Positions 13,101 through 55,336 of a stretch of DNA of 64,000 nt are shown in pieces. The stretch is from Aquificota bacterium (lineage in GTDB: Bacteria; Aquificota; Aquificia; Aquificales; Hydrogenothermaceae). The translations under genes were made by a program, and so were the position numbers. Position 1 is the stretch's first letter. Each line of letters opens with the position of its first letter. The notes below the pieces were generated by a model. It did no database searches. It was not told the origin of the DNA and was given only the letters and a program-made list of their open reading frames with translations. The stretch is from assembly GCA_013153635.1 (NCBI GenBank), contig JAADDZ010000014.1:62001-126000 (forward strand), written 5' to 3'.

Positions 13101-13123
13101 AAAATAAAACAGTGTTTTATTTT
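13101..13123. promoter_or_regulatory. Perfect 10-3-10 palindromic operator in front of nadA
   Basis: AAAATAAAAC, AGT, GTTTTATTTT: all ten positions of each arm match. It sits between the nadA start codon and the upstream AT-rich promoter region. The same architecture recurs in pairs at 40843-40893 and 51760-51810, in front of the 2-oxoacid:ferredoxin oxidoreductase operons. The regulator is not identified. Confidence 0.7.
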
Positions 13124-36653: not shown

Positions 36654-36699
36654 TGAAAAAATCTATTATCAGTGTCTAAACTAAAATAGGAGCCTATAT

Positions 36700-37209: not shown

Positions 37210-37552
37210 GATTTATGAAAACCTCAAAGAATTCTACAAAACAGGCAAAAGGCATACAATCTTTACAAATAAAATACCCCTTTGTGAAGAAGATAAAAAA
37301 TTTCTAAAAGAAGCTCTAGGAGAAGGAAATATTAAGATAGAAATCAAATCAGAACTTCACCCAGCTATCTGGAAAGAAACAAAGATAAACGGTGTATGGA
37401 TAGGAATCATTTACGACAAAAACCAAAACCCAATTGTTGAAACAATAGAAATAACCGATTTCCCCCAATTAGCAAAATCCCAAAGAGAAGATATACTAAA
37501 TTCAATAAAAACCTTAGAAAATACCTTAAAAAACTTCATACCGCCAAGATAG
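37178..37552 (+). CDS. HupH/HyaF-like hydrogenase expression protein (C-terminal domain only)
   Basis: A 124-residue soluble protein. 'EEDKKFLKEALGEG' and 'NGVWIGIIYD' followed by 'ETIEITDFPQ' resemble the C-terminal domain of HupH/HyaF, which help assemble the small-subunit Fe-S clusters or target the hydrogenase. It is much shorter than HupH (about 280). A ribosome site GGGGAG lies within the protease gene. Position at the end of the hydrogenase operon supports the call. Confidence 0.65.
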   Translation: MLMNAVPILNEIYENLKEFYKTGKRHTIFTNKIPLCEEDKKFLKEALGEGNIKIEIKSELHPAIWKETKINGVWIGIIYDKNQNPIVETIEITDFPQLAKSQREDILNSIKTLENTLKNFIPPR

Positions 37553-37558
37553 GCGGTA
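37539..37558. terminator. Hairpin between convergent hydrogenase and gap operons
   Basis: TACCGCC (37539-37545) pairs with GGCGGTA (37552-37558) around a 6-nt loop. On the minus strand a TTTTTT tract follows five bases later, which suits termination of gap. On the plus strand no T-tract follows. The left arm is inside the last codons of the HupH-like gene. Confidence 0.55.
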
Positions 37559-37562
37559 CTAC

Positions 37563-38585
<1,023 letters not shown>

Positions 38586-38597
38586 CTAATTTAATTT

Positions 38598-40842: not shown

Positions 40843-40865
40843 AAAATCAAACAATGTTATAAAAT
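40843..40865. promoter_or_regulatory. Operator copy 1 upstream of the forDABGE-like operon
   Basis: AAAATCAAAC, AAT, GTTATAAAAT. The left arm is the exact reverse complement of the right arm of the 51760-51782 site. Centre at 40854, 28 bp from the next copy. Confidence 0.6.
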
Positions 40866-40870
40866 TCCAT

Positions 40871-40893
40871 TAAATCAAACATTGTTATAAAAT
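40871..40893. promoter_or_regulatory. Operator copy 2 upstream of the forDABGE-like operon
   Basis: TAAATCAAAC, ATT, GTTATAAAAT. Nearly identical to copy 1 and ending 8 bases before the -35 of the forD promoter, a position suited to an activator or an upstream-bound repressor. Centre at 40882. Confidence 0.6.
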
Positions 40894-40901
40894 TTTAAAA
40901 G

Positions 40902-40930
40902 TTGTTATTATTATTTTTATGGCATATTAT
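40902..40930 (+). promoter_or_regulatory. Promoter of the forDABGE-like operon
   Basis: TTGTTA (40902-40907), a 17-bp spacer and TATTAT (40925-40930), about 30 bases before the forD ATG, which is preceded by AAAGGAGGAC. Confidence 0.55.
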
Positions 40931-40961
40931 TATTTTAATGAAATTTTAAAGGAGGACTAAA

Positions 40962-41681
40962 ATGTCAGACAAAAAAATCATTCCCGGTCCTGCAGGTTAC
41001 ATGCCTGAACCTGCCGTCTTTATGGGTGTAGAACTTCCTCCAGAGGGAAAAGCTCTTCTATACGGCGAAATCGTAGATGAAGAGCAAGCAATGAGGGAAG
41101 CCGCAAAAGCTATGCTCACAAAACCAAATCCCACAATATTTCCCGGACCTCAAGTCCTATGGAACTGGAAAGAAGATGTAGCAGACAAAGCCCAAGCTAT
41201 CTTAGAACTAGCATCAGAAATACCAAATTGTAGAATAATCCCTATGCCTGACTATAGACCAAAATACCCAAAAATCGACCCAGAAGCAGAAATAAACCCA
41301 AACCACCCAAATCTAACAATATTACACAATAAAATAGAAGCATGTATCTTTGTTGGTGTTCACTGTCATTATGCTAACCTCTCTCTTAGAATGATAAGAG
41401 CTGGTACTAACTGTTTTACAATAGCACTTTGCGCTTTTATGGGACACGAAGAAGCGATGGCTTCTTTAAGAGACGTACACGCAGATGACATAAGAAGATT
41501 CAAAGACGTCCTTGTACAGGTAAGAAATGAACTTGGAATAGATTGGACTCCAAAACCACCTCCAAGAAATCCATCACTACCAAAAGAAGAGTGGGAAGCT
41601 CTAAACCCATTAGATTATGGAGATTATATGCATCTTATTATCCCTAAAAAGGGAGAAGAAAACGTTACAGAAACCGAGTAA
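40962..41681 (+). CDS. forD: 2-oxoacid:ferredoxin oxidoreductase accessory subunit (ForD-like, CODH beta/epsilon-like)
   Basis: A 239-residue soluble protein, first of a five-gene set in the order D-A-B-G-E known for the 2-oxoglutarate:ferredoxin oxidoreductase of Hydrogenobacter thermophilus. 'EEQAMREAAKAML' and 'TIFPGPQVLW' recall the nucleotide-fold small subunit (CdhB/epsilon type) of CO dehydrogenase, so an FAD/NAD-like site is possible (inference). Four Cys/His residues in 'CIFVGVHCHYANLSLR' and 'CFTIALC' are shared with its paralogue at 51967. A Pro-rich ~50-residue tail is absent from that paralogue. Function of this subunit type is poorly understood. Confidence 0.7.
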   Translation: MSDKKIIPGPAGYMPEPAVFMGVELPPEGKALLYGEIVDEEQAMREAAKAMLTKPNPTIFPGPQVLWNWKEDVADKAQAILELASEIPNCRIIPMPDYRPKYPKIDPEAEINPNHPNLTILHNKIEACIFVGVHCHYANLSLRMIRAGTNCFTIALCAFMGHEEAMASLRDVHADDIRRFKDVLVQVRNELGIDWTPKPPPRNPSLPKEEWEALNPLDYGDYMHLIIPKKGEENVTETE

Positions 41682-41707
41682 ATTTACAAACTTAGGAGGT
41701 ATTAATC

Positions 41708-42877
41708 ATGCCAGAACAAAAAGTTGTCGATACAGATTATCTATTGCTTGAAGCTCCTAGAGAGAGAAAATTTATAACAGGAGCTCAAGCAATGGCAGAA
41801 GCAGTAAAAAGAGCAAATGTAGATATGGCTATAGCATATCCTATAACTCCTCAATCAGAAGTTATGCACCTAGTTGGAGACCTATACGCTCAAGGTTACT
41901 TAAAAGATTACTATAGAGCAGAAGAAGAATATGGAACAATGTCAGCTATCGCTGGTGCTTCTAGAGCAGGAGTTAGAGTTTTTACAGCGACATCTGGACC
42001 TGGACTTTTAAGAGGTATTGAAGCTATAGCTTCATGGCCGGGACATAGAGTACCAGCAGTACTTGGAGTATTAACTAGAGTTGTAAATGCTCCTTTATCT
42101 ATTCAACCAGATAATATAGAGCTAGCATACTTATTACATAGTGGAATAGTATTACTTCATGCAGAGAATCAGCAAGATGTTTTTGATATGACCCTAGCCG
42201 CATTTGCAATATCTGAAATGGTAGATGTTTATATCCCTGTAGCAGTAGCTACAGAAGGATTCTTCGTTACCCATGCAAAAGGATACGTAGAAATGACTCC
42301 AGAAGATATGAAACTTCCAGCTAGAGACCCATACAAAGCTCCTGTTCCAGTAACGGACTGTGAAGTCCCACCTGCTAGGATACAGAGAGATGCACCAGTT
42401 CAAAAATCTAACTTTATGAGTTATCTGATTCATGCAGTATGGCAACAGGAAGTTTGGGCTTCTAACATGAGAGCGATGAAATACATAAACAAATATTTAG
42501 GAGGACCAATAGAAGTAGTAAATCCTGAAGCAGATGTTTTTGTAGTTGCATCAGGTTGCGCCGCCGCACAAGGAAGAGAAGCTGTAAGATACGCACAGCA
42601 AGAAGGACTAAATGTAGGATTAGTTAAAATAAAATCAATAAGACCTTTCCCAGCAAAAGAAGTAAAAGAAGCTCTCAAGAATGCAAAAGCTGTTATTATC
42701 CCAGAACACAATATCGAGGGTTGGTTGTCTAAAGAAGTAAAAGCCGCAATTCCAAATAGTGGAATAGTAACAGATGGACCAAGAGTATACGGTGGTATGA
42801 CTCTACCTGTAGAACTAATAATGGAAGAGATTTATAAGGCATTAGGCGTAAAAGGAAAACAAAGAGTAGTTATTTAA
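41708..42877 (+). CDS. forA: 2-oxoacid:ferredoxin oxidoreductase alpha subunit (set 1, probably 2-oxoglutarate)
   Basis: A 389-residue alpha subunit with 'AYPITPQSEVMHLVG' (pyrimidine-binding domain start), the acidic 'EEEYGTMSAIAGAS', 'TATSGPGLLRGIE' and 'PLSIQPDN', then the C-terminal domain II 'VVASGCAAAQGREAVRYA'. It carries out the reductive carboxylation step with the beta subunit. Its assignment to 2-oxoglutarate and not pyruvate rests on gene order (D-A-B-G-E), not on residues. RBS AGGAGG. Confidence 0.85.
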   Translation: MPEQKVVDTDYLLLEAPRERKFITGAQAMAEAVKRANVDMAIAYPITPQSEVMHLVGDLYAQGYLKDYYRAEEEYGTMSAIAGASRAGVRVFTATSGPGLLRGIEAIASWPGHRVPAVLGVLTRVVNAPLSIQPDNIELAYLLHSGIVLLHAENQQDVFDMTLAAFAISEMVDVYIPVAVATEGFFVTHAKGYVEMTPEDMKLPARDPYKAPVPVTDCEVPPARIQRDAPVQKSNFMSYLIHAVWQQEVWASNMRAMKYINKYLGGPIEVVNPEADVFVVASGCAAAQGREAVRYAQQEGLNVGLVKIKSIRPFPAKEVKEALKNAKAVIIPEHNIEGWLSKEVKAAIPNSGIVTDGPRVYGGMTLPVELIMEEIYKALGVKGKQRVVI

Positions 42878-42910
42878 TTTTGTCAAAACAAAAACTAGGA
42901 GGTAATAATA

Positions 42911-43774
42911 ATGGGTTTAAAATATATTCAACCAGCACCGGGATTTAAAGAATATCTTCCAAAGGACTACGTTGATTTAATAGATTTTGGTCCTTTTGGA
43001 AAAGAGATAGATGTCCAATACATGGGACAGTACAAAGAGATACTAGAAGAACACCCTATGTGTGCAGGGTGTTGGATGGCATACTTTGTGAGAGTATTTT
43101 ATGCGGCTTTACCAAATCCAGAAGATACTATAGTTTTAGGTACTGCTGGTTGTGCTAGATTAGCACTTTCTCAAGCGGCTGTTCCATTTATATATGGAAA
43201 CTATGGAGATACTAACGCAGTTGCTTCTGGACTAACCAGAGCTCTTAACCTTAGATTCCCAGATAAAACCAAAGACGTGGTTGCTATTGCTGGAGACGGT
43301 GGTCTTATGGACATTGGTTTTAGTATGACTCTCCACTCGTGGTTTAGAAGAGAGAAATTTACAACTATCATGGTGGACAACGAAGTATATGGAAACACAG
43401 GAGGACAAGAGTCAGGTATGTCTCCAAAAGGTGTTCAGCTAAAAATGGCACCAAAAGGTAAAAAATTCGATAAAATTCCAGCTACAGAACTAGCTAAACT
43501 CGCTGGCTGTGTTTATGTAGTTAAATTGGCTCCTACAAATGTTAAAAGAATGGCAAAAGTTATCAAAAGAGCTGTTTTAGCGGCAAGACATTTTGGTCCT
43601 ACCTTTATTCATGCTTATACTTCTTGTAATATTGAATATTCAATCCCAACAGAAGAAGTTCTAAAAGACGCAAGAGAAAGAGAAAAGAAAGATTTTGGAT
43701 TCGAAGAATACATGACAGATGAGGTCAAAGAGTTCTTTGAGGAGATTGAGAAAAAGAAGGAGGTTAAAAAGTAA
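42911..43774 (+). CDS. forB: 2-oxoacid:ferredoxin oxidoreductase beta subunit (set 1)
   Basis: A 287-residue TPP- and [4Fe-4S]-binding subunit. Cluster cysteines start in 'HPMCAGCWMAYF'; a third is in 'GTAGCARL' and a further one in 'TSCNIEYS'. The TPP/Mg motif is 'GDGGLMDIGF' with 'DNEVYGNTGGQES'. It overlaps forG by one base (TAATG). Confidence 0.92.
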   Translation: MGLKYIQPAPGFKEYLPKDYVDLIDFGPFGKEIDVQYMGQYKEILEEHPMCAGCWMAYFVRVFYAALPNPEDTIVLGTAGCARLALSQAAVPFIYGNYGDTNAVASGLTRALNLRFPDKTKDVVAIAGDGGLMDIGFSMTLHSWFRREKFTTIMVDNEVYGNTGGQESGMSPKGVQLKMAPKGKKFDKIPATELAKLAGCVYVVKLAPTNVKRMAKVIKRAVLAARHFGPTFIHAYTSCNIEYSIPTEEVLKDAREREKKDFGFEEYMTDEVKEFFEEIEKKKEVKK

Positions 43775-44460
43775 TGAAAAGGTATAATATTAGAATTGCC
43801 GGGGTTGGTGGACAAGGGGTTGTAACCTCTGCTCATATTCTTGGTAATGCAATGTCAGCGGCAGGTAAATATGCTACCCTTGTTCCATTTTTTGGTTCAG
43901 AAAAAAGAATGGCTCCAGTTGAAGCATACGTAAGAGCTTCTGATGCTCCTATCTATGAAGTTGGAGAGGTTGTTTACCCGAATGTTATTATGATTTACCA
44001 CCCACAGGTTATCACTCACGGGAAATCCTATACTATGCCCTTTTATTCTGGACTTAAAGAAAATGGTATCGTTATCATTAACACAGAAGTGGACATTCTT
44101 ACAGATGAAGATAAAAAAGTACTCGAAGATTTAAATACACAGGTTATTATGTATAACGCAACTGGACTTGCATTAGAGATTGCTGGGACAGAGCTTGCCA
44201 CTAACATGGCTATGATAGGATTCTTCTTTGGTATTACTAAACTCGTTGATTTTGAACATATAGAAAGAGCAGTTAAAGAAAGATTCTTAGGAAATACTTT
44301 TGTAGCCTCTGGTGGTACTGCTTCTTTGGATTCAGCTATAGAGAAAAAATTCAAAAGAAAAGTAGAACTCTTGGAGAAAAATATGCAAGTTATAAGAAAC
44401 GCCTTTAAAATTGTTGAAGAAATGGGCTGGACAGAAGAAAAACAGCCAGCTGGCACATAA
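43774..44460 (+). CDS. forG: 2-oxoacid:ferredoxin oxidoreductase gamma subunit (set 1)
   Basis: A 228-residue gamma subunit with 'IAGVGGQGVVTSAHILG' at the N-terminus and 'SEKRMAPVEAYVRAS' (the RGG-type region is RMA here), matching the family that binds CoA. 'ATNMAMIGFFFG' is conserved with the paralogue at 54620. It is the fourth gene of the set. Confidence 0.92.
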   Translation: MKRYNIRIAGVGGQGVVTSAHILGNAMSAAGKYATLVPFFGSEKRMAPVEAYVRASDAPIYEVGEVVYPNVIMIYHPQVITHGKSYTMPFYSGLKENGIVIINTEVDILTDEDKKVLEDLNTQVIMYNATGLALEIAGTELATNMAMIGFFFGITKLVDFEHIERAVKERFLGNTFVASGGTASLDSAIEKKFKRKVELLEKNMQVIRNAFKIVEEMGWTEEKQPAGT

Positions 44461-44486
44461 TTATAAAATAACACGGAGGTTAGAAT

Positions 44487-44711
44487 ATGTACTATGTAGC
44501 AAAAGTTGATGAGGAAAAGTGTGCAACTTATAAATGTAAACAATGTACACTTTTCTGCCCAGAAGCTAACACATTAATGTTTGATGATGACAGAAATACT
44601 GCATGGGTTAACGAACCAAGATGTAAAGGTTGTGCCCTTTGTGTTTATGTATGTTCAGACCTTCTAAAAAGAGATTGTATTGAGATGGTAATGGTTACAG
44701 CTGAAGATTAA
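44487..44711 (+). CDS. forE: Ferredoxin-like delta-type subunit (ForE-like), 2 x [4Fe-4S]
   Basis: A 74-residue protein with two Cys sets, 'CATYKCKQCTLFCPEA' and 'CKGCALCVYVC', as in delta subunits of pyruvate/2-oxoacid:ferredoxin oxidoreductases. It passes electrons between soluble ferredoxin and the beta-subunit cluster. The first set has an unusual extra spacing (C-x4-C-x2-C). RBS ACGGAGG. The second oxidoreductase operon in this window has no counterpart. Confidence 0.85.
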   Translation: MYYVAKVDEEKCATYKCKQCTLFCPEANTLMFDDDRNTAWVNEPRCKGCALCVYVCSDLLKRDCIEMVMVTAED

Positions 44712-44717
44712 ATTCTA

Positions 44718-44744
44718 TAGGTGGCTGTTGTGCCACCTACTTTT
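44718..44744 (+). terminator. Intrinsic terminator or attenuator after forE
   Basis: TAGGTGGC and GCCACCTA form a perfect 8-bp stem with a TGTTGT loop, followed by CTTTT. It is 6 bases after the forE stop and 33 before the next gene, which probably depends on readthrough. Confidence 0.8.
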
Positions 44745-44776
44745 AAAAATAGAACAAATAAAAGGAGGGCTTTTAA

Positions 44777-45085
44777 ATGACACAAGAATTAAAAGAAAAA
44801 CTAGCAAAGGTAGTAGAGCTAGTAAAAAACGATATGGTAGACCCAGATATTGATATTGAATACTGTATCCCAGAAGTTGCAGTTACTTCTGACAAATGTG
44901 ATGTATCTGGTGAACCTTATATCTTGGTAAAATACATCACAGAAGAACATGACGTCCATGAAAGAAAGATTAAAATTAGAAGAAAATATCAACAGATGTC
45001 TCCTGAAGATTTGGCAAATTTAATCACTTTTTATATTGAGCAGTTTAAAGAAGAAATCGATTCTGTTGAGTATGGTGGAGAATAA
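44777..45085 (+). CDS. Conserved-looking small acidic protein, unknown function
   Basis: A 102-residue soluble protein, largely helical at both ends with a beta-rich middle. It has two Cys ('YCIPE', 'DKCDVSG') that could bind a metal, and a charged 'HDVHERKIKIRRKYQQ'. I do not recognise the family. It follows the forE terminator with a strong ribosome site (AAAGGAGGG) and precedes the CobW-type GTPase by 9 bases, so it may belong functionally to either unit. Confidence 0.55.
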   Translation: MTQELKEKLAKVVELVKNDMVDPDIDIEYCIPEVAVTSDKCDVSGEPYILVKYITEEHDVHERKIKIRRKYQQMSPEDLANLITFYIEQFKEEIDSVEYGGE

Positions 45086-45094
45086 CTATCAAAT

Positions 45095-46024
45095 ATGGTA
45101 TCTTCCTTTATAGTCACAGGTTTCTTAGGTAGTGGAAAAACAACTCTTTTGCTCAACTCTATAAAAGAACATTTTAAAGATAAAAAAATAGCTATCATTG
45201 TCAATGAATTTGGTGAAGTAGGAATAGATGGGAAGATTTTAAAAAATGTTTATAGTGAAGTTTTAGAAATATCGGAAGGGTGTATATGCTGTAAACTATC
45301 AGCTGAATTTGAAAAAGGGGTTACTGAAATACTCCAAAAATACAATCCAGAAATCATATTTGTAGAGACCTCGGGAACTTCTGAACCCTTCCCGATTTTT
45401 CTCTCTTTACAAAATCTTCAAATATCTGTAGAAGGTATCATCTGTGTGATAGATACAAAAAATTTTGAAAACTACAAGGAGCATTCCACTGCTAAATATC
45501 AAATAGGTGGGTCTAACATACTTGTGCTAAACAAGATAGACCTTGTAGATGAAGACACGATAAATAAAGTACAAAAAGAAGTCAAAGCTATAAAAGAGAA
45601 ATACAATATCAAAAATGTATTGACAGGAGAACCTATCTTTAAAAGATATGCCATATATAGGGCAAAGTTTGGCGTATTACCAGAAGAAGTTTTCAAAGGT
45701 GTCTTTAAGATAGAAGATATTTTGGATATAGGACAGAAAGTTTATCCTACAGAACATATTACAGAAGACTCTTTTTACCAAAGGGTAATTTATCTACCAG
45801 AAGATATTGATTTTAAGTATGTAGAAAAACTACTATCTAATCTACCTAAAAATATCTACAGGGTAAAAGGGATAGTAAAAACGAAAGATATTCCTGTACC
45901 GATTTTAGTCAATTACTCTTTTGGAGACGTAACTTTCTCCGAAATTCCAAACTATGAAGGTAAATCGTTTCTTATTCTCATAGGCTCTAATTTGGAGGAC
46001 AAACAGTTAATTCAGCTAAACTAG
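45095..46024 (+). CDS. CobW/COG0523-family metal-chaperone GTPase
   Basis: A 309-residue protein with Walker A 'GFLGSGKTTLL', the metal-binding CxCC in 'EGCICCKLS', 'ETSGTSEP' and 'NKIDL'. The C-terminal domain ('YQRVIYLPEDIDFKYVEKLL') is a shorter CobW_C-like domain. The family delivers Zn or other metals to client proteins. Here its neighbour is dabA, which needs Zn, so DabA is an attractive client (inference). It converges on the hemerythrin gene with a 4-base overlap of the stop ends. Confidence 0.88.
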   Translation: MVSSFIVTGFLGSGKTTLLLNSIKEHFKDKKIAIIVNEFGEVGIDGKILKNVYSEVLEISEGCICCKLSAEFEKGVTEILQKYNPEIIFVETSGTSEPFPIFLSLQNLQISVEGIICVIDTKNFENYKEHSTAKYQIGGSNILVLNKIDLVDEDTINKVQKEVKAIKEKYNIKNVLTGEPIFKRYAIYRAKFGVLPEEVFKGVFKIEDILDIGQKVYPTEHITEDSFYQRVIYLPEDIDFKYVEKLLSNLPKNIYRVKGIVKTKDIPVPILVNYSFGDVTFSEIPNYEGKSFLILIGSNLEDKQLIQLN

Positions 46025-46422
46025 ATTGTATCGCCAACGTGCATAGCTGTCTCTGCGTCCCATCTTGATATGTGCAGTATGAGCCATGGCTTAAACTCGT
46101 CTTCCAAAAATTTAATCAAATCTTCAAAATTCCTAGTTTGTTTCCAATCTTCATACAGCTGATAGATTTTTTGTTTCATTGTATCATGTTCACCTTTGTG
46201 CATCTGATAGGCAAAAAATCTACTTTCTCTCATCATATCTTCTTCTGTAGAGAAATGGTCTTCTATGTCTTCGAGAAATACTTTGAACATATGGTCTGCT
46301 TTTTCTATATCTTTCGCTTTTAAAGCATCGTGTAACTGATTTACTATCTCTACCTCTTCTTCATGGAGAATATTCATCATTGGGTTAGCTACTTGAGGTA
46401 ATTCTTCTTTTTTTAATAGCAT
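46021..46422 (-). CDS. Bacteriohemerythrin-like O2-binding protein
   Basis: A 133-residue four-helix protein with the di-iron ligands in order: 'ILHEEE', 'HFSTEED', 'HKGEHD' and 'HISRWDAE'. It is expected to bind O2 reversibly or sense it. It is the last gene of the dabB-dabA operon (25 bases after dabA). Neighbouring oxidoreductases are oxygen-sensitive, so O2 scavenging near them is a plausible role (inference). Confidence 0.88.
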   Translation of the reverse strand: MLLKKEELPQVANPMMNILHEEEVEIVNQLHDALKAKDIEKADHMFKVFLEDIEDHFSTEEDMMRESRFFAYQMHKGEHDTMKQKIYQLYEDWKQTRNFEDLIKFLEDEFKPWLILHISRWDAETAMHVGDTI

Positions 46423-46447
46423 ATTTAATACCTCTTGGTCTTTAATT

Positions 46448-49342
46448 TTAAATTATACAATAATCTATCTCTTTAATCAACTTAAACTCTCCATCTTCGA
46501 ATTTATAAATCTTTCCATCTTTTTCATCTATCAAAACTAGCCTTATCCATTCATTTAGGATTATTGGACTTGCCAGTTCTGAAGCTTTTGTAGCTTTAAG
46601 CGCAAGCTCCATCGGTGCTTCTAAAAATACTATCAACCTTGTAGGTTCATGATAAGGCTTGTCTTCTAATAAAACTGTTTGGGTAGGAAGTCCTATCTTT
46701 AGGTCACTATAGTTCCCATAAAACACACCTACTTTAGAAACTATATTGTGATACACTTTTGAGCCTGCTCCGAATATTTCGTTGTCTACAGTGGAAAAAT
46801 AATGTTCCAGATTTATCCATTCACCAACGATTAAGGGTCCTGAAAATAGAGCAGTTAGTATAGAAACTTTATCATCATCTATTTTCCAGTCGTATGATAC
46901 AAGAAAAAATCTATTGTGGAGGGTTAGATGTTTTATGCTCTCTCTTTTTCCTACATATGCGGCAACATTCTTAGATAATCCCCATTCTGGTCTTGGCTCT
47001 GACCAATCTATAGCTTTTATAAAAATATCTTCTTCTGTTTCTGTGTACGGAAGGGTTTTTATTCTTTCTTCTCTAGACCTTGATGTGGCAAATTTAATAT
47101 CATCTAAAACTTTCGCAAACAGTTTTTCTTCTTCATCATTCAAAATTTCTGTATCATAAAACTCTATCTCATCTGTAGTAGTGATATGAAGTCCCGGTAG
47201 GAATTTCACATCACTTGGGATTTTTATACCTCTCTCTTCCAGTTTTTTTCTAACTTCTTCTCTGTTTCCTATCATACACATAGCTCTAGCATTTGGAAAA
47301 CTTATATTTCCTCCACAAGCTCCACAATCAAGTGCAGATTCAAAAGGATTGTTATCTGATTTACTTCCATGTCCCACGATAAGAACAAATTTTGGGAAAT
47401 CAGAAACAAGACCTATTGTTTTAAGAAAGTTTTCTAGATACATAACTTGCTCATCGAGAGAGAAACCTACTTGGGATAGTTTTCTCTTTTGGAATTCGTA
47501 ATCTTCCTTTGTTATATTATATTTTTCTTTTAATTTTTCTAATATTTCGTTTGGGACTTTTATAGATAGAGGCTCACCAAATATTAGATGTTTCCATATC
47601 TCTTCCGTTTCTATCTCTGTCAAATCTCTCTTTAAGTAAGCTGAAACGATTTCTTGAATAAACTTAAAATGGACTTTTTTTGCAAACAACTCTATATCTT
47701 CTTGGGATAGTTTGTCTATAATGTATGTAGTCTTTGGCTTTTTAGGTCTAAATTTTGAAAAGAATCTATCAACCTCTCTTGGAAAGAATGTTTTTCCAAA
47801 AAGATTTATACCAAATAACCAACCTATAGCTTCTACTGTTATAAAAGGAGTGTAAGGGTTGTTTTTTAAATCGTTTAAAACTTTCTTTAATGTCTTTGTA
47901 AACCCTTTTTTAGCTTTATACTCTTCATGTCTCTCTTTTGGTAGTTCAAAAACAACATTGTTAGGTTTTATTATCGCAGGACATAGGAACTGCTCATGGT
48001 CTTTATCAAACTCAATAAAAGTTATAGGCATTCTTAAAAAACCTGCAATCCCATAAGTGTTATAGGGACCTATTCGTTCCATATATCTTCTAACAGCTTC
48101 AGAACGAACATCGATACACATAACTAAGGAAGCTAGTAATCTATCTTTGGGAGCTTTTGAACTAGAAAAAAATTCATTTACATAGGTTTCTATATAGCTG
48201 TCTTCCAAAGATTTTAACCAGATGAAACCTTCTTCTTCTTTTAGTACTTTTACAAACTTTGCAAACTCTATCAGGTCTCCTTCAAAAGTTGGAAGTTCTT
48301 TTTTTGCTAGCTGTATCTGAAGGGCATCAAGCTCTAGCTCTTCCTTTACATAACTTTCTAATATTTTTTTAGGTTCTTGACCTTCCTCTAACCAGTCAAT
48401 ATATTTTGGAGGAAGCTGGCTATTGTACTTAAGTATCTTTAAAGCTACAAACTCCCTATTTTTTTCTATAAAGTTATTTAGCTTTTCATAATTATTTATT
48501 TTTTCGTTTTTCATATGCTTCCATTCATAGTACAGCCTCACAGCTAGATAATCTATTAAAGAAGCAGGATATTCCTGTTGCCAATAGTAATAATCATCAG
48601 ATTCTCTATATTTTATAAACCCAGCCCAACCTGCCTGTTTTAAGAGATGAGAAAGAAAATAATTAGAAATCTCTTTTTGGGGAACTTTTAGGTTGTCTAA
48701 AATTTCTTTGATAAAAGCTTGTGCATCTCCACTAAAATCTAAACCTTCATAATACTTAAAAGTATTAAACATACCCAAATGTCTTTGATACATGGACAAT
48801 GTTGTTTGTTCTTGGTCTAAAAATCTAGATATATACTCGATAATATCCCTTTCTATAATCTCTTTTTTATCTGTATCAAAGATAGCATCGAATATCTCAT
48901 ACAAAGTGTAATATTTAACATTATGAGTAATTAGGCAGTTGGCATCTTTAAATTGAGAATCCCTTTTTAGTACATCTATAAGAAATCTATTTATACATTC
49001 TTGTTTTGAGCTTTTATATGTTCTAAAACTTTCCCACCTTGGACTTATCTCTATAAGAAATGTTCTAGCTTCATGAAAATGTTTTACCAAGTTATGCTCT
49101 TTTAGAACCTTTGAAAGGTTCTCTTCCAAGATATGCTGTTTTATCTTACCTTCTTTATAGAGAGAAACATAATATTCAGCAGGCATATAAACATTTGCTT
49201 TGAATATATCTTTTGCTAACTTTAAACCTTCTCTGAAATTTTTCTTCTCAAATCCTGTTAAAGGATTGTGATGGATAAACGTGATAATAGGCCAATATTT
49301 TGGAATTACCCCTTTTACATAATCAAGATTCTCCTTTATCAT
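46448..49342 (-). CDS. dabA: DabA: Zn-dependent subunit of the DAB inorganic carbon transporter (DUF2309)
   Basis: A 964-residue DUF2309 protein. DabA carries a beta-carbonic-anhydrase-like zinc site: here 'VMCIDVRSE' gives Cys409 and Asp411, 'VGHGSKSDNNPFESALDCGACGG' (split: 'IVGHGS', then 'DCGACGG') gives His658 and Cys673. All four key residues are present. With DabB it couples a cation gradient to one-way CO2 hydration or bicarbonate accumulation. N-terminal 'FIHHNPLTGF' is also typical. It overlaps the middle membrane gene by 4 bases. Confidence 0.95.
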   Translation of the reverse strand: MIKENLDYVKGVIPKYWPIITFIHHNPLTGFEKKNFREGLKLAKDIFKANVYMPAEYYVSLYKEGKIKQHILEENLSKVLKEHNLVKHFHEARTFLIEISPRWESFRTYKSSKQECINRFLIDVLKRDSQFKDANCLITHNVKYYTLYEIFDAIFDTDKKEIIERDIIEYISRFLDQEQTTLSMYQRHLGMFNTFKYYEGLDFSGDAQAFIKEILDNLKVPQKEISNYFLSHLLKQAGWAGFIKYRESDDYYYWQQEYPASLIDYLAVRLYYEWKHMKNEKINNYEKLNNFIEKNREFVALKILKYNSQLPPKYIDWLEEGQEPKKILESYVKEELELDALQIQLAKKELPTFEGDLIEFAKFVKVLKEEEGFIWLKSLEDSYIETYVNEFFSSSKAPKDRLLASLVMCIDVRSEAVRRYMERIGPYNTYGIAGFLRMPITFIEFDKDHEQFLCPAIIKPNNVVFELPKERHEEYKAKKGFTKTLKKVLNDLKNNPYTPFITVEAIGWLFGINLFGKTFFPREVDRFFSKFRPKKPKTTYIIDKLSQEDIELFAKKVHFKFIQEIVSAYLKRDLTEIETEEIWKHLIFGEPLSIKVPNEILEKLKEKYNITKEDYEFQKRKLSQVGFSLDEQVMYLENFLKTIGLVSDFPKFVLIVGHGSKSDNNPFESALDCGACGGNISFPNARAMCMIGNREEVRKKLEERGIKIPSDVKFLPGLHITTTDEIEFYDTEILNDEEEKLFAKVLDDIKFATSRSREERIKTLPYTETEEDIFIKAIDWSEPRPEWGLSKNVAAYVGKRESIKHLTLHNRFFLVSYDWKIDDDKVSILTALFSGPLIVGEWINLEHYFSTVDNEIFGAGSKVYHNIVSKVGVFYGNYSDLKIGLPTQTVLLEDKPYHEPTRLIVFLEAPMELALKATKASELASPIILNEWIRLVLIDEKDGKIYKFEDGEFKLIKEIDYCII

Positions 49343-50064
49343 TTAAGAACCTCCTCAAGACCATATATACCTACTGCTAGTAGAACAATATTTAAAACAG
49401 TATGGAATATCTTCTCTTTTCTCTCTAGGTCTATATAAAAGATGTTTTCATTAGCCTTTCCAAAAACAGTATTTACCAAGATTTTCATAGCTACAAAAAA
49501 GTTTCCAAAGAAAAACACAATAATAACCGTATACCAAATCAAATCAAGTTTGTCTTTTAACATACTGTTAAACAAAAACACTGCGTTAGGAAAAGGAGGA
49601 TACAAAGCTAAATTAATAAGATATATCCTTAAAAACAAACCAGCAAAAGGAGATTTTAATGCAAGACCTCCTACAGAAAAGAAGTTGGCACTTCCGTAAT
49701 TTTTCTCATAATAATAACCTATCAAATACAGTCCTACCAACGTTACCAAAAGAGAAAAGATAAAGTAAACAAAGTATTCAAATGAAAATAAGAAATAAAC
49801 AGGAGAATTAATAAAAATAAAGTAATTAACTAATTTATAAATATTAGTTGTCTTTAATGCTTTATAAGTTGTAAAAAGAGATGTTAGTATTGCACTAAAA
49901 ATACAAAAAAGATTTTGGCTACAATTAACATTAAACAGTATCATAAAAAGTAGACCAACGATAATTAAAAAAGCAGAAATAAAAAAGGTGTATTTTTTTA
50001 AGCTTTTTTCTAAAAAAATGTAGTAAGGTACGCCTGCAAGAAGAATTAGTAAAACAAATTCCAT
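49339..50064 (-). CDS. Small polytopic membrane protein, antiporter-like third DAB component
   Basis: A 241-residue protein with six or seven membrane helices. 'GGLALKSPFAGLFL' followed by 'NLALYPPFPNAVFLFN' resembles the G-L-A-x-x-x-P and A-L-x-G-x-P-P segments of NuoL/NuoM/MrpD antiporter subunits, as if it were the C-terminal half of such a protein. It is translated between dabB (12-base gap) and dabA (ATGA overlap), so it is probably a third subunit of the carbon transporter. The two-gene DAB systems described first lack it. Confidence 0.6.
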   Translation of the reverse strand: MEFVLLILLAGVPYYIFLEKSLKKYTFFISAFLIIVGLLFMILFNVNCSQNLFCIFSAILTSLFTTYKALKTTNIYKLVNYFIFINSPVYFLFSFEYFVYFIFSLLVTLVGLYLIGYYYEKNYGSANFFSVGGLALKSPFAGLFLRIYLINLALYPPFPNAVFLFNSMLKDKLDLIWYTVIIVFFFGNFFVAMKILVNTVFGKANENIFYIDLERKEKIFHTVLNIVLLAVGIYGLEEVLK

Positions 50065-50076
50065 AGTTCACCTCTT

Positions 50077-51693
50077 TTAAAAGATTTTAAACAGCTTTAA
50101 GAACAAATCAGGAAAATAAGCTTCTTTAGAGAGAAGTTTGTAAAATGTCCACTTCAATTTGTTAGGTTTCTCCCCATCTATCTCTATATCAGTAAAATGC
50201 TGTTTATATATATATGCCCACCCTACAATCAATATAAGTACCAGCAAACCTAGAGCAAAAATCACAGAAAGATTTAAAGATGCAACCTCATAAAAAAGCT
50301 TGGCATGTTCACCATAGATAAACTCCTCCATAGTCTTCCCCACAAATTCATAAGTCAAAACGATTAGAGTAAATGAAACTAGTAACCCAATAATAACTTT
50401 TGGAGAATCTGACAACGAAACTTTGAAAAAAGATAAAAACAGTTGAGTTCCTGTTAACCAAGCAAAAGCAAGTATCACTACAGCCGCATTAAAATGGAAA
50501 AACTCTTCACTAAGAAGAAATTTTATACCTGCAAAAATAACTACAGGGATTATAGTAAACAAAGCTATAAGCCAAAATAGATTTTTAGATTGATGCTGAT
50601 TATGTATCTTCTCTTCCCAAAAAACCTCATAAGACAACCTTTTAGGGATATTTGGGTCATGTCTAGCATAATGAATCAAACTACCAGATTCCAAGAATAA
50701 AGATGCCTTGAATATACCATGTACAATAAGATGATAAACAGCAAGACTAAACGCTCCAAGACCAATTTCCATAATCATGTATCCCATCTGTCCTACAGTA
50801 GAATAACCTAGAGACCTTTTAATATCTGGAGTCGTTAACATAATCATAGAAGCAAAAATAGCAGTAAATAAGCCAAAGGCAAAAGCTATGTTAAGTACCA
50901 AAGGAGTAAGCAAAAGCAAAAATGCAAGTTTGTTTAAAACAATACCTCCCACATTTACCACACCTGCATGCATCAAAGCAGAAACAGGAGTAGGACCCTC
51001 TGAAGTATAAGGTAACCATATATGAAAAGGGATTATCGCAGATTTCATCATCGCCGCAAACAGATATAAGAACCCTATAACATAAATAATCAAAGGAGTA
51101 GTATCCAAAGCTGAATATTGAGATAACCATATGTCGTATAGTTCAGATAAATAAAAAGTACCAAAAGTTTTATAAGTTAGGACAACTGCTATGATAAATA
51201 ATAAGTCAGCCCCTTTGTGTGTCAAAATAGTCCAGTTAGCAAACTTCACAGCGCTTTTTGACTCTATATTAAAAGATACTAAAAAATACAAAGCCAAACT
51301 CATTATTTGCCAAGCTATCGCAAGAACAACCAGATGGTTGCTCATAACTAGTAGATATATACCAACAAAAATAAAATTAAGTAAGATAAAAAATCTTTTA
51401 TAACCCTTCTCGTCCCACATATACTTTGCAGAGTACTTCCTTATAACCATTCCTAACACAGCAACATACGGAACTAAAATCGCAGAAAGCTCATTAAAAA
51501 CAAGTAAATTATTAAATCCATATATATTTTCATCTTCAAAAATAACAAAATAAGCTCCAAATATACCTAACACAGCGATAAAAGCAGAGAAAAACATACT
51601 AATACGAGGAATAGCTTCTTTATTGTTAATTACCCCTATCAAACCAGCTATAATCAAAGGGATAAAAGGTATAATCAAAACTAACTCTTTCAA
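50077..51693 (-). CDS. dabB: DabB: NuoL/MrpA-like cation-channel subunit of the DAB transporter
   Basis: A 538-residue protein with about 13-15 membrane helices. The proton-antiporter signature 'TSEGPTPVSALMHAGVVNVGG' is recognisable in two parts ('EGPTPVSALMHAG', 'NVGGIVLNK'), with 'TTPDIKRSLGYSTVGQMGYM' following, as in ND5. DabB energises DabA. The start is TTG (51691-51693) with GGAGGATTTTA before it. It is the first gene of the minus-strand operon, with twin operators 67-117 bp upstream of its start. Confidence 0.92.
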   Translation of the reverse strand: MKELVLIIPFIPLIIAGLIGVINNKEAIPRISMFFSAFIAVLGIFGAYFVIFEDENIYGFNNLLVFNELSAILVPYVAVLGMVIRKYSAKYMWDEKGYKRFFILLNFIFVGIYLLVMSNHLVVLAIAWQIMSLALYFLVSFNIESKSAVKFANWTILTHKGADLLFIIAVVLTYKTFGTFYLSELYDIWLSQYSALDTTPLIIYVIGFLYLFAAMMKSAIIPFHIWLPYTSEGPTPVSALMHAGVVNVGGIVLNKLAFLLLLTPLVLNIAFAFGLFTAIFASMIMLTTPDIKRSLGYSTVGQMGYMIMEIGLGAFSLAVYHLIVHGIFKASLFLESGSLIHYARHDPNIPKRLSYEVFWEEKIHNQHQSKNLFWLIALFTIIPVVIFAGIKFLLSEEFFHFNAAVVILAFAWLTGTQLFLSFFKVSLSDSPKVIIGLLVSFTLIVLTYEFVGKTMEEFIYGEHAKLFYEVASLNLSVIFALGLLVLILIVGWAYIYKQHFTDIEIDGEKPNKLKWTFYKLLSKEAYFPDLFLKLFKIF

Positions 51694-51759
51694 TAAAATC
51701 CTCCTAAAGCATTTTTGTTAGGTAATTAATCAAGTACATAATTTTAACAAAAATTTAAA

Positions 51760-51782
51760 AAAATAAAACAGTGTTTGATTTT
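51760..51782. promoter_or_regulatory. Operator copy 1 between dabB and porD
   Basis: AAAATAAAAC, AGT, GTTTGATTTT: nine of ten arm positions pair. Centre at 51771. It lies 67 bp upstream of the dabB start and about 90 bp upstream of the porD -35, so either or both divergent operons may be controlled. Confidence 0.65.
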
Positions 51783-51787
51783 TTTAT

Positions 51788-51810
51788 AAAATAAAACGGC
51801 GTTTTATTTT
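51788..51810. promoter_or_regulatory. Operator copy 2 between dabB and porD
   Basis: AAAATAAAAC, GGC, GTTTTATTTT: perfect arms, identical to the nadA site apart from the spacer. Centre at 51799, 28 bp from copy 1, the same distance as in front of forD. Confidence 0.7.
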
Positions 51811-51871
51811 AATGACAAAAATCATTTTTTAATCCTTAGAAACCAATTATTTTTAGGCATAAACAGTTTAC

Positions 51872-51900
51872 TTGAATTACGATAAAATTTATCTTATATT
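51872..51900 (+). promoter_or_regulatory. Promoter of the porDABG-like operon
   Basis: TTGAAT (51872-51877), a 17-bp spacer and TATATT (51895-51900), which leaves a leader of about 60 bases before the porD ATG. Confidence 0.7.
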
Positions 51901-51966
51901 TAGTAGTAAGCTGTTCTTTAAATGTGTTATTATAAACGAATACCAATCTCTATTTAGGAGGAAACT

Positions 51967-52539
51967 ATGGCAAAATTAGGTCCCGCTCATTATTCACCTT
52001 ATCCCGTCGCTGTTTATGAAGGCATATTAACCCCTCCAAAAGGAAAAGCCCTTCTTTTTACAGAAATCGTAGACGAAGAACAAGCGATGAGAGAAGCCGC
52101 AAAAGCTATGTTAACTAGAGAAAACGCTACAATATTCCCTGGACCACAAGTTTTATACGCATGGAACGACGAAGCAAAAGAAAAAGCAAAACTGATAAAA
52201 GAAATGGCACAAATCCTTGACGCAAAAATAATTCCTATGTATGACTATAGACCAAAATACCCAAAAATCGACCCAGAAGTAGAAATAAACCCAAATCACC
52301 CAAATTTAACGATATGGCACAATAAAATAAAAGCTTGCATATTCATAGGAGTTCATTGTCACTACGCTAATGTTGCACTTAAAATCATAAGGTCTGAAAC
52401 AGACTGCTTTACTATAGCAATGTGTAGCCAAGCTGGTCATGAAGATGCGATGATAACATTGAGAGATCAGCATGTAGAAGAGATAGAAAAATTCTTAGAA
52501 GTAGCAAAAGAGGTAAAAAAAGAACTAGGTAAAGCATAA
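51967..52539 (+). CDS. porD: 2-oxoacid:ferredoxin oxidoreductase accessory subunit (PorD-like, paralogue of forD)
   Basis: A 190-residue paralogue of the 40962 gene, without its Pro-rich tail. Shared blocks: 'EIVDEEQAMREAAKAMLT', 'TIFPGPQVLY', 'DYRPKYPKIDPE' and 'GVHCHYAN'. The segment around 'DYRPKYPKIDPE' is also nearly identical at the DNA level (38 bases without a difference), hinting at gene conversion. The CODH epsilon-like fold is inferred. RBS AGGAGG. Confidence 0.7.
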   Translation: MAKLGPAHYSPYPVAVYEGILTPPKGKALLFTEIVDEEQAMREAAKAMLTRENATIFPGPQVLYAWNDEAKEKAKLIKEMAQILDAKIIPMYDYRPKYPKIDPEVEINPNHPNLTIWHNKIKACIFIGVHCHYANVALKIIRSETDCFTIAMCSQAGHEDAMITLRDQHVEEIEKFLEVAKEVKKELGKA

Positions 52540-52560
52540 TCTTTAAGGAGGTTAATAATT

Positions 52561-53748
52561 ATGCGTATGATTGAAAATAAAGTAGAAAAAAATTGGGCAG
52601 GACAAAGGATTGTCTCCCCTGATTACCTTCTTTTCGAAGCTCCAAGGGAAAAACATTTTATGACAGGTTCAGAAGCAGTAAAAGAAGCAGTCAAAAGAGC
52701 ATCAGTAGACGCATCTGTATCATATCCTATAACCCCTCAATCAGAAGCCGCACACCTCATAGGAGAGCTATGGGCAGAAGGTTATGTAGGTGTGTACTTT
52801 AGAGGGGAAAATGAATTCGGTGTTATGTCAGAAGTTGCAGGAGCCGCAATGGCTGGAGCTAGAGTTATAACAACTACCTCTGGTCCCGGAACATTAAGAG
52901 CTTTTGAAAACTTCCCTATGTGGTCAGGAACAAGAATCCCGGTTCAGTTAGTACTCATGGCAAGAGGTGTAAACTCCCCTCTTTCAATCCAACCAGATAA
53001 CCTTGAAGTAGACTTTTTACTAGATACAGGGTGTATGATATGGTACGCTGAAAACGTTCAAGAACTATTTGATATGATTCTTGCAGGATTCGCAGTTGCA
53101 GAGCAACCAGACGTTCATGTACCTGTTATCACAGCTGTTGACGGTTTCTTTGTTTCACATACAAGAGAGGCTATATATCTTCCTCCAGATGATATAGCAT
53201 TACCTCCTTATGCTCCATATAAATCACCTATGCCTGTTATAGATGCAGAGATACCCCCGGGCAGATTCCTAAGAGACCCATTTGTTATGAAGTCTAACTA
53301 TATATCATATGCTACTCACGCAAGTTGGCAGTGGGAAGTAAGGTCAGCTATAGAAAGGTCTAGACCTTACGCAAAACACTATCTAAAAGGCTTAACAGAA
53401 GAATTTGGAGAAAAAGATTCAGAAGTTGTCTTCATAGCTTGTGGAACAGCCGCATCTCAAGCTAAAGAAGCGGTAAGAATGCTTGAAGAAACAGAAGGAA
53501 TAAAATCCAAAGTAGTAAAACTTAAAACAATTAGACCATTCCCTTATGAAGAGATTTTAGAAGCTACTAAAAACGCAAAATATATATTTATACCAGAGTT
53601 CAATGTGGTCGGCTGGTTAGAAAGAGAAGTGAGAAAAGCTCTCTACAAAAAATCAGATGCCGAAATAATAGGAACTCCTAGAGTTGCCGGTGGTATGACA
53701 ATGCCAAAAGAAATCATAGTAAGAGAAGTTTTAGAATACATCAAATAA
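52561..53748 (+). CDS. porA: 2-oxoacid:ferredoxin oxidoreductase alpha subunit (set 2, probably pyruvate)
   Basis: A 395-residue alpha subunit with 'SYPITPQSEAAHLIGELW', 'ENEFGVMSEVAGAAMAGAR', 'TTTSGPGTLRAFE' and 'GVNSPLSIQPDN'; domain II 'FIACGTAASQAKEAVRM'. With set 1 assigned to 2-oxoglutarate, this would be the pyruvate synthase of the reductive TCA cycle. That assignment is by gene order and elimination. A short N-terminal extension ('MRMIENKVEKNWAGQRI') is present. Confidence 0.82.
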   Translation: MRMIENKVEKNWAGQRIVSPDYLLFEAPREKHFMTGSEAVKEAVKRASVDASVSYPITPQSEAAHLIGELWAEGYVGVYFRGENEFGVMSEVAGAAMAGARVITTTSGPGTLRAFENFPMWSGTRIPVQLVLMARGVNSPLSIQPDNLEVDFLLDTGCMIWYAENVQELFDMILAGFAVAEQPDVHVPVITAVDGFFVSHTREAIYLPPDDIALPPYAPYKSPMPVIDAEIPPGRFLRDPFVMKSNYISYATHASWQWEVRSAIERSRPYAKHYLKGLTEEFGEKDSEVVFIACGTAASQAKEAVRMLEETEGIKSKVVKLKTIRPFPYEEILEATKNAKYIFIPEFNVVGWLEREVRKALYKKSDAEIIGTPRVAGGMTMPKEIIVREVLEYIK

Positions 53749-53759
53749 GGAGGTAAGTT

Positions 53760-54620
53760 ATGGCATATAAAATATATAAAGTAAATGAAGAGTTTAAAGA
53801 TATAGTTCCTGAAGAAGTCGTGGAACTAGAAGAAAAAGCCACTTGGGGAAATCCAAAAAGAGGAGTAATGGACTTACCTGTAACCAAGGAGCTTTTGGAA
53901 GAACATTCTCTATGTGCTGGTTGTCCTGAATCAGCGGCAATAAGGTATATACTAGCGTCTTTACCAAATCCAGAGGACACGATAATAGTAAACTCTACAG
54001 GGTGTACCTCTTTAGTATTTCCTCATATATCCCTTCACACAGTTCACTCTCTCTTTGGTAATCAAAACTCTGTGGCATCTGGAATAAAAAGGGTTTTAGA
54101 GTGGAGATTTCCTGATAAAGCAAAAGATGTAGTAGTTCTAGCTGGAGATGGTGCAACTGTTGATATAGGTCTTGATTACACATTACAATCATTCTTTAGA
54201 CAGGAAAAAATAACTACTATATGTTTTGATAACGAAGTTTATGCAAATACAGGAGGCCAAGAATCAGGACTAACCCCAAAAGGGCATGTTTTCAAAATGG
54301 CTCCCAAAGGAAAACTCTTTGACAAGGTACCTATGTGGCAGTTGGCTATTGATTCTGGCTGTCATTATGTAGCTAGACTAACAGTGTCATCTCCTAAAAA
54401 GGTAGAAAGAGTTATAAAAGAAGCTATATATGTAGCAAGAGAATTAGGACCTACTTATATACACCTTTATACACCTTGTATACTTGAGATAGGTTTAAAC
54501 TCTGATGATGGACTTGATGAGATGAGAAGTAGAGACAAAGAAAGATTCGCATTCTTTGAGTATAAAACTCCACATGCAGAAGAAGTAATCGCTAAATATA
54601 AAGCGGAGGGATTACTATAA
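53760..54620 (+). CDS. porB: 2-oxoacid:ferredoxin oxidoreductase beta subunit (set 2)
   Basis: A 286-residue TPP/[4Fe-4S] subunit. 'HSLCAGCPESAAIRY' gives the first two cluster Cys, 'NSTGCTSL' the third and 'TPCILEIG' a fourth. The TPP motif is 'GDGATVDIGL' followed by 'DNEVYANTGGQES'. The stop and the porG ATG share one base. Confidence 0.92.
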   Translation: MAYKIYKVNEEFKDIVPEEVVELEEKATWGNPKRGVMDLPVTKELLEEHSLCAGCPESAAIRYILASLPNPEDTIIVNSTGCTSLVFPHISLHTVHSLFGNQNSVASGIKRVLEWRFPDKAKDVVVLAGDGATVDIGLDYTLQSFFRQEKITTICFDNEVYANTGGQESGLTPKGHVFKMAPKGKLFDKVPMWQLAIDSGCHYVARLTVSSPKKVERVIKEAIYVARELGPTYIHLYTPCILEIGLNSDDGLDEMRSRDKERFAFFEYKTPHAEEVIAKYKAEGLL

Positions 54621-55336
54621 TGGAAAGAAGACTTGTATCAATAAGAATGCCCGCTCTTGGAGGTCAAGGTGCTGTTACTGCGGCTCATATCATTGCTACT
54701 GCCGCTGACAACGAAGGATACTATGCTGTATCAAACCCTTTCTTTGGGGCTGAAAAAAGAATGGCTCCTTCTGAAAGTTATGCGAGAATAGGGATAGTAC
54801 CTATTTACGATAGAGGAGAAGTGGTATATCCTGACGTGATAATGGTTTTCCACCCACAAGTTATTACTATGGGTAAGTCCTACACCATGCCATTTTACTC
54901 TGGCATAAAGGAAAACGGGCTAATTTTGATAAACAGTGAGCATGACCTTTTAACGAAAGAAGATAGACAGCTCCTAGAGGAAAAAAATGTTTATATACTA
55001 ACAAGAGACTTTACAAAATTTGCGGTAGAGATTGCTGGTACAGAGCTTGCTACTAATATGGCTATGCTTGGTGCTTTGTTCGGTGCAATGGGTATAGTGA
55101 GCAAAGACTCTATCGAAGAAGGTATAAAAGCAAGATTCTTAAAAAAGTATGTAGCCTCTGGTGGTACTGCTTCTTTGGACTCTGCTATCGAAAGAAAGTT
55201 TAAAAGAAAACTAGAATTAATAGAGAAAAATCTATCCACCGCCTCTGCCGCTTATGATTTAGCTAGAGAATGGGCAGAAAGCCAAGGTATAAAACCTTTC
55301 TTACCACCTCCTCCAGTAAAAGAACAAGTAGCATAA
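54620..55336 (+). CDS. porG: 2-oxoacid:ferredoxin oxidoreductase gamma subunit (set 2)
   Basis: A 238-residue gamma subunit: 'MPALGGQGAVTAAHIIA', 'FFGAEKRMAPSESYARI', 'ATNMAMLGALFGAMG' and a near-identical 'YVASGGTASLDSAIERKFKR' to forG. It ends with a Pro-rich tail. It is the last gene before a strong terminator; no ferredoxin-like E subunit follows or precedes this set. Confidence 0.92.
   Translation: MERRLVSIRMPALGGQGAVTAAHIIATAADNEGYYAVSNPFFGAEKRMAPSESYARIGIVPIYDRGEVVYPDVIMVFHPQVITMGKSYTMPFYSGIKENGLILINSEHDLLTKEDRQLLEEKNVYILTRDFTKFAVEIAGTELATNMAMLGALFGAMGIVSKDSIEEGIKARFLKKYVASGGTASLDSAIERKFKRKLELIEKNLSTASAAYDLAREWAESQGIKPFLPPPPVKEQVA

Follow-up and report, generated by a model that had tools for sequence, protein, structure and literature searches.

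The stretch of DNA analysed here (the window; 64,000 nucleotides, positions 62,001–126,000 of contig JAADDZ010000014.1 in assembly GCA_013153635.1) belongs to an Aquificota bacterium of hot-spring type in the family Hydrogenothermaceae. At positions 40843–55336 it carries an island in which genes for a predicted inorganic-carbon uptake system of the DAB type lie between two carboxylase operons of the reductive tricarboxylic acid (rTCA) cycle, those for 2-oxoglutarate:ferredoxin oxidoreductase (OGOR) and pyruvate:ferredoxin oxidoreductase (POR). We re-read the island from its open reading frames (ORFs) and by family searches. All of the genes named in an earlier note on this DNA were found in place, with the limits given there, and the arrangement recurs in relatives and is thus not a product of chance.

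On the forward strand, two copies of a predicted rTCA operator (ATCAAACAATGTTATA, 40846–40861, and ATCAAACATTGTTATA, 40874–40889) precede forD (OGOR delta subunit, 40962–41681; PF02552), forA (alpha, 41708–42877; assigned by family searches and cluster identity), forB (beta, 42911–43774), forG (gamma, 43774–44460), forE (small [4Fe-4S] epsilon subunit, 44487–44711), an ORF of 102 amino acids (44777–45085; no Pfam or NCBIfam match) and a cobW-type G3E GTPase gene (45095–46024; PF02492). The reverse strand then encodes a bacteriohemerythrin (46021–46422; PF01814 and TIGR02481) downstream of dabA, the DAB1-like zinc subunit DabA (46448–49342; PF10070, 689 bits, E = 1.3e-206), a third membrane protein of 241 amino acids (49339–50064) and DabB, a NuoL/Mrp-like proton-channel subunit (50077–51693; PF00361, 125 bits, and PF00662). 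The cobW gene converges on that for hemerythrin, the two overlapping by 4 bp. From dabB the por operon diverges across a 273-bp spacer, which contains two further predicted operator copies (51763–51807; palindromes, no strand assigned), and it comprises, on the forward strand, porD (POR delta subunit, 51967–52539), porA (alpha, 52561–53748), porB (beta, 53760–54620) and porG (gamma, 54620–55336). The earlier gene list was therefore correct, but it did not give the strand of the dab and hemerythrin genes as opposite to that of for/cobW and por, it omitted the 102-amino-acid ORF, and porE is absent.

The two carboxylase operons were compared with a reference genome (chromosome of 1,551,335 bp) that we take to be that of Aquifex aeolicus; which of its two stretches is the OGOR side and which the POR side was judged by their chromosomal order. 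The forA product is 84% identical to its counterpart in the OGOR-side cluster and 47% to that in the POR-side cluster, and the porA product is 78% identical on the POR side and 53% on the OGOR side. By sequence orthology the assignment of the for operon to OGOR and of the por operon to POR is unambiguous. The two Aquifex clusters have been shown biochemically to be OGOR and pyruvate:ferredoxin oxidoreductase (PFOR) (PMC10052474). In gene order and orthology forDABGE corresponds to a five-subunit OGOR; the por operon does not have the five-gene form porEDABG, and the sole porE-type match in the window is forE. In Aquificaceae genomes (for example G001:C1:1147885) a third PF02552 match lies within open frames of 720–790 amino acids, possibly a carbon monoxide dehydrogenase-like fusion.

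The dabA gene of the window is the only one in the genome. Its product matches PF10070 over the full length, and in an alignment with DabA2 of Halothiobacillus neapolitanus (Protein Data Bank (PDB) 9rd0_A) its residues C409, D411, R413, H658 and C673 correspond to C351, D353, R355, H524 and C539. These five zinc-site residues (Cys2His plus an Asp–Arg dyad) are invariant in all 44 DabA sequences compared, and function in H. neapolitanus depends on them (PMC13144422). DabB is of the NuoL/Mrp type and matches PDB 9rd0_B. General family searches of Pfam and NCBIfam gave no match for the third membrane gene, and a profile of 14 of its homologues aligns with the extension at the C-terminus of the long DabB proteins (753–790 amino acids) of Aquificaceae (hhalign, 98%, E = 1.5e-13) as against 0.2% in a control with the window's own type of DabB; both profiles are hydrophobic and shallow, and the match is strong, not final. 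Because its homologue is fused to DabB in Aquificaceae, the third gene very probably encodes a DAB subunit. A single-sequence comparison with the third gene of Nitrobacter gave weak similarity, and the AlphaFold2 model of the third subunit (predicted local distance difference test (pLDDT) score 44) was unusable. By its membrane gene between dabB and dabA, the operon is classed by its gene layout as the three-subunit subtype, DAB1. In our DabA tree DAB1 and a second lineage, DAB2, form separate clades; the DAB1 clade is fully supported, and the grouping of DAB2 with a Nitrobacter plasmid DabA involves long branches and is to be held lightly. The plasmid, from Nitrobacter hamburgensis (L117, NC_007959.1), bears two tandem dabB–third gene–dabA operons, with a PII gene after the first. 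A PII-like gene also follows DAB2-lineage dabA in Aquificaceae (L050 and others), at the position of the hemerythrin gene in the window, and is a possible DAB regulator.

PF10070 is present in 52 of 136 Aquificota genomes, and the delta subunit family PF02552 occurs above cut-off in 94. Searching the stretches around these matches with the window proteins gave 55 genomes with a readable neighbourhood, for which the gene slot after for was tallied by hand from the search output. Carbon-uptake genes adjoin for and/or por in 44 of the 55, one of these having a dabA remnant only. The slot itself holds DAB2 in 18 genomes, DAB1 in eight and, in 13, SbtAB, a bicarbonate transporter with a PII-like partner that is non-homologous to DAB; SbtA was not found by family search in the genome of the window. 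Four genomes carry uptake genes next to por or on the upstream side of for, one has the dabA remnant, and 11 (g11, g14 and G078) have none at for or por, most of these carrying dab or sbtA elsewhere. By a rough estimate, chance would place an uptake gene at the slot in about 5% of genomes. The dab/for/por linkage, for which the earlier note had proposed a neighbourhood comparison, is thus conserved across two families.

The arrangement of the window recurs in genera g1 and g2, one g2 genome (G065) having dab beside por only. In g5 and in g9, to which a genome that we take to be S. azorense belongs, the order is for–orf102–cobW–dabB–third gene–dabA–porE–porDABG, all in one direction. Two Sulfurihydrogenibium-type g9 genomes (G097 and G100) carry sbtA and sbtB between the third DAB gene and dabA (L041, 7267–8538; L043), which makes two uptake systems per cluster. 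The Aquificaceae, among them a genome presumed to be that of Hydrogenobacter thermophilus, have for–orf102, in some cases cobW, and then DAB2, usually followed by the PII-like gene, and sbtA–sbtB occupies the slot in g15, g16, g19 and part of g18. Of two genomes of Sulfurihydrogenibium type that carry DAB2, the first (G103) has this system next to por, and in the second (G098) SbtAB lies upstream of for. At one locus (L083, G026:C28) for–cobW is followed by a dabA remnant, a short match with an in-frame stop, and sbtA is found on another contig, an apparent replacement of DAB. In g5/g9 (L041, 4225–5058; L040, L065, L110) a 277-amino-acid protein matching the central domain of glutamate synthase is encoded after cobW and before dabB or porE. 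The contig ends of L037 (G066:C39) carry forD and dabB as inverted duplicates, probably an assembly artefact.

One could suppose that for, por and an uptake gene were joined once and then travelled together by descent or transfer, with no functional coupling. The for–orf102–cobW core is indeed conserved even without dab, and some Hydrogenothermaceae have both five-subunit-type for/por and DAB, as though the two had been gained jointly. However, the occupant of the slot switches among the non-homologous DAB1, DAB2 and SbtAB while the place stays the same, DAB1 and DAB2 are separate clades, DAB2 stands next to por in G103 and SbtAB upstream of for in G098, and the dabB promoter has an operator copy of its own (below), all of which makes a single inherited neighbourhood unlikely. 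Because its occupants are different systems, and two of them distinct DAB clades, the slot is judged from sequence to have been filled more than once; several independent insertions are favoured by the present data.

The palindrome taken here as an operator is conserved in the dabB/porD spacers of five relatives and is also present upstream of forD. The pattern ATCAAACANNGTT has seven matches at six places (one on both strands) in the 1.69-Mb genome of the window, and the reversed pattern has none. A broader pattern, ATMAAACRNYGTTWKA, is present in every one of the 41 Hydrogenothermaceae genomes, typically 5–20 times per genome versus 0–2 for the reversed control. The predicted targets of the operator in the genome of the window are dabB, forD, icd–aclBA, acn, ferredoxin, nuoH, argF and nadA, and in the four genomes read site by site (this one, G075, G069 and G065) the operator precedes acn, icd, aclB, mdh, frdA, ferredoxin, nuoA or nuoH, nadA, argF and tpx. 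In two genomes lacking DAB it stands before acn, icd, mdh, ferredoxin, argF, nuoA, nadA and the genes for acetyl-CoA synthetase, a 4Fe-4S protein (taken as the POR delta subunit), a forA-like protein (30%) and an IclR regulator. A weight matrix trained on sites outside the island was run over the 64 kb, and the dabB/porD site was the best in the window (31.6 of a possible 32.0), with the copy before nadA (30.1), the other copy in the spacer (27.1) and the forD pair (23.4 and 20.6) next; the best score elsewhere was 11.2, and Markov backgrounds reach 9–11. The nadA site is a perfect copy (13104–13120) located 22 bp upstream of that gene (quinolinate synthase, 12141–13082, reverse strand), as in relatives.

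In the window the nearest spacer copy lies 71 bp before dabB and about 160–190 bp from porD; in all five loci the copy nearest dabB is 50–86 bp from the dabB start and 162–223 bp from porD. Because the distance to dabB resembles that at other targets and porD is farther away, the spacer operator probably serves dabB; it may serve porD too. Co-regulation, whose absence the earlier note had named as refuting, is thereby supported in its sequence part, by a predicted operator common to the dabB promoter and rTCA genes. A matrix scan found no operator upstream of forD in the presumed H. thermophilus genome, and Aquificaceae may therefore use another control.

The consensus of the regulator KdgR (PMC5559549) is one symmetric base pair away from the palindrome (AAATCAAACANTGTTTGATTT here, AAATGAAACAnTGTTTCATTT for KdgR), and the group 2 class of IclR-family operators (PMC8222616) fits. 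The palindrome is probably bound by an IclR-family regulator. At L200 (G072:C179) an IclR-family gene has the operator 38 bp upstream and is a candidate for an autoregulated master regulator; the IclR gene in the genome of the window has no operator. Beside the palindromes lies an FNR/CRP-like dyad, ATGACAAAAATCAT (51812–51825), conserved in five relatives. As a common signal it was set aside in favour of the palindrome, being kept in the dabB/porD spacer and not convincingly recovered upstream of forD. A sigma-70 promoter scan stayed at background (62 matches, 53.6 expected).

DabA/DabB-like complexes might also work as Na+/HCO3- symporters or cation pumps in pH or ion homeostasis, the role proposed for MpsAB homologues (PMC13144422), and DabB does belong to the Mrp/NuoL superfamily. 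Against this, the full zinc site is conserved, the exchange with a member of the SbtA bicarbonate transporter family at the same slot points to carbon uptake, and dabB carries the rTCA operator. We regard such a role as very improbable here.

Two accessory roles suggested in the earlier note had to be given up. CobW was to be the metal chaperone of DAB, whereas the cobW gene follows for and not dab: it is kept with forDABGE in genomes without dab and where the slot holds SbtAB in place of DAB, and is missing from several genomes with DAB directly after for. Hemerythrin, proposed as an O2-binding accessory, is confined to genera g1 and g2 and is ruled out as a general DAB accessory. The 102-amino-acid ORF is conserved after forE wherever the downstream stretch can be read (G098/L110 included; cut contigs are uninformative). 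Its AlphaFold2 model is fair (pLDDT 80), and nothing in the PDB matched it at E ≤ 0.001. The stretch immediately before the island (34947–40598) has genes for a hydrogenase large subunit and a small maturation-protease-like protein on the forward strand, then glyceraldehyde-3-phosphate dehydrogenase and transketolase genes on the reverse strand.

The genome encodes ATP citrate lyase, and a targeted search found no RuBisCO; these together indicate the rTCA cycle, and the system is thus not a CO2-concentrating mechanism in the strict sense of RuBisCO and carboxysome. Family searches of the same genome gave neither alpha- nor beta-carbonic anhydrase (CA). In Hydrogenothermaceae, DAB or SbtA occurs in 13 of the 14 genomes with five-subunit-type for/por and in none of the 27 without, and a beta-CA is encoded in two of 13 genomes with DAB or SbtA versus 25 of 28 without (Fisher p = 7e-6; shared ancestry is ignored in this value and in these counts). 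None of 64 Aquificaceae has a beta-CA. Both exceptions belong to g2, and those g2 enzymes that were read (G068 and G070) have a signal-peptide-like N-terminus, export being probable. A beta-CA adjoining por/kor in relatives without DAB was considered and discarded, there being no for/por-type neighbour among the loci listed.

The near exclusion of beta-CA by DAB or SbtA also fits a different use of the pump, namely that its HCO3- goes chiefly to carboxylases of anaplerosis and biosynthesis (pyruvate carboxylase and those of carbamoyl phosphate, purine and fatty acid synthesis) in place of a cytosolic CA, its proximity to OGOR and POR reflecting shared growth-rate control. HCO3- is the direct DAB product (PMC13144422), the operator precedes argF, whose product uses carbamoyl phosphate, and the genome has one pyruvate carboxylase (PYC)-type carboxylase. 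Yet the slot adjoins the CO2-using OGOR and not the biotin carboxylase, no operator match was seen in the 9 kb around the latter, and some genomes stack two uptake systems at the slot. We consider this use possible, though clearly the less likely one.

We think it likely that a three-subunit DAB1-type pump supplies HCO3- to the rTCA cycle and is matched to it by location and by a common operator. This is read from gene content, the intact active site, linkage, the interchangeable occupants, the operator, and the absence of alpha- and beta-CA and of RuBisCO; transport and its direction, proton coupling, the identity of the regulator and the benefit to rTCA flux are what we infer. The dabB–third subunit–dabA operon would form a pump for dissolved inorganic carbon, in which the zinc site of DabA would hydrate entering CO2 to HCO3-, proton flow through DabB would drive this reaction in one direction, and the third subunit would complete the membrane arm. 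A DAB is known to hydrate CO2 at its zinc site under proton motive force (PMC13144422). The HCO3- would feed the biotin-dependent, PYC-type carboxylase directly, and CO2 for OGOR, POR and isocitrate dehydrogenase would be regained from the HCO3- pool by spontaneous dehydration or by a gamma-CA-like protein, the lack of a cytosolic beta-CA limiting leakage. Spontaneous dehydration of HCO3- is fast at the growth temperatures of such organisms. Supply and demand would be matched in two ways: by location, in that most of the Aquificales genomes read have carbon-uptake genes at the site after forDABGE, and by the palindromic operator that dabB and forD share with further operons for the rTCA cycle, ferredoxin and complex I.

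Several points weigh against this pump-and-cycle coupling. OGOR and POR use CO2 and not HCO3- (PMC10880623); dab is unlinked to for/por in g11, g14 and one further genome (presumably Aquifex, Hydrogenobaculum and Thermocrinis albus); and a gamma-CA-like protein is encoded in the genome, so that the cytosol may hold a CA. In addition, the operator pattern was first read off the island itself, most other targets being found afterwards, and its presence before nadA, argF and tpx may mean a signal of general carbon or nitrogen status. Of the earlier proposal that uptake serves the ferredoxin-dependent carboxylases, the tie is upheld by linkage and operator and a direct benefit is not: since DAB delivers HCO3- while OGOR and POR use CO2, any benefit would be indirect.

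To our knowledge, carbon-concentrating mechanisms have been studied almost wholly around RuBisCO. The premise of the earlier note, that DAB systems are mainly partners of the Calvin cycle, is dated: DabAB is abundant in membranes of A. aeolicus (PMC10052474), and Scott and colleagues reported in 2024 that carbon-uptake or CA genes are co-located with por/kor genes in rTCA organisms (PMC10880623, Fig 2). That is the same general observation as ours; its text, apart from the figure, mentions neither an exchangeable slot after OGOR nor a common operator. We found no report of either in the literature searched, which is not proof of novelty (subscription papers and the PMC10880623 figure lay outside it), and no relevant account of an rTCA regulon in Aquificales came up in a literature search; the exchangeable slot and common operator appear to be new. 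The broader picture, which we hold with even confidence and doubt, is that Aquificales may possess a compartment-free carbon-concentrating system coupled to the rTCA cycle, with a dedicated post-OGOR slot for exchangeable, unrelated uptake systems, the pump of Hydrogenothermaceae sharing an IclR-type regulon with nearly the whole cycle, ferredoxin and complex I. The place of the pump genes, the common operator and the exchange of unrelated systems at the slot suggest that the reverse Krebs cycle, and not the Calvin cycle alone, has carbon uptake as a standard partner. If true, inorganic carbon would be limiting for autotrophs without the Calvin cycle as well, and evolution would have equipped them with a dedicated supply. 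The analysis yields a short, testable gene list and one operator motif, and it bears on primary production in hot springs and on the engineering of rTCA carbon fixation.

The closest known systems each share part of this arrangement. DAB1 of H. neapolitanus (hneap_0907–0909) likewise combines DabA, a NuoL-like DabB and an extra small membrane protein in one operon, a likeness that is drawn from its description (PMC13144422), not from sequence comparison; here, in contrast, the partner pathway is the rTCA cycle in a genome without RuBisCO, and Aquificaceae have the third subunit as part of their DabB. The DAB2 complex of the same species (PDB 9rd0) has its zinc ligands Cys351, His524 and Cys539 and its Asp353–Arg355 dyad conserved in the window, but the third subunit is separate here, and the similarity along DabA is only partial. 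Unlike KdgR operators, those predicted here have rTCA genes as targets. The for and por operons resemble forDABGE/porEDABG of Hydrogenobacter and Aquifex in subunit order (77–87% identity to the matching cluster of the presumed A. aeolicus genome), and differ from them in that DAB lies between the two operons and por has no porE of its own.

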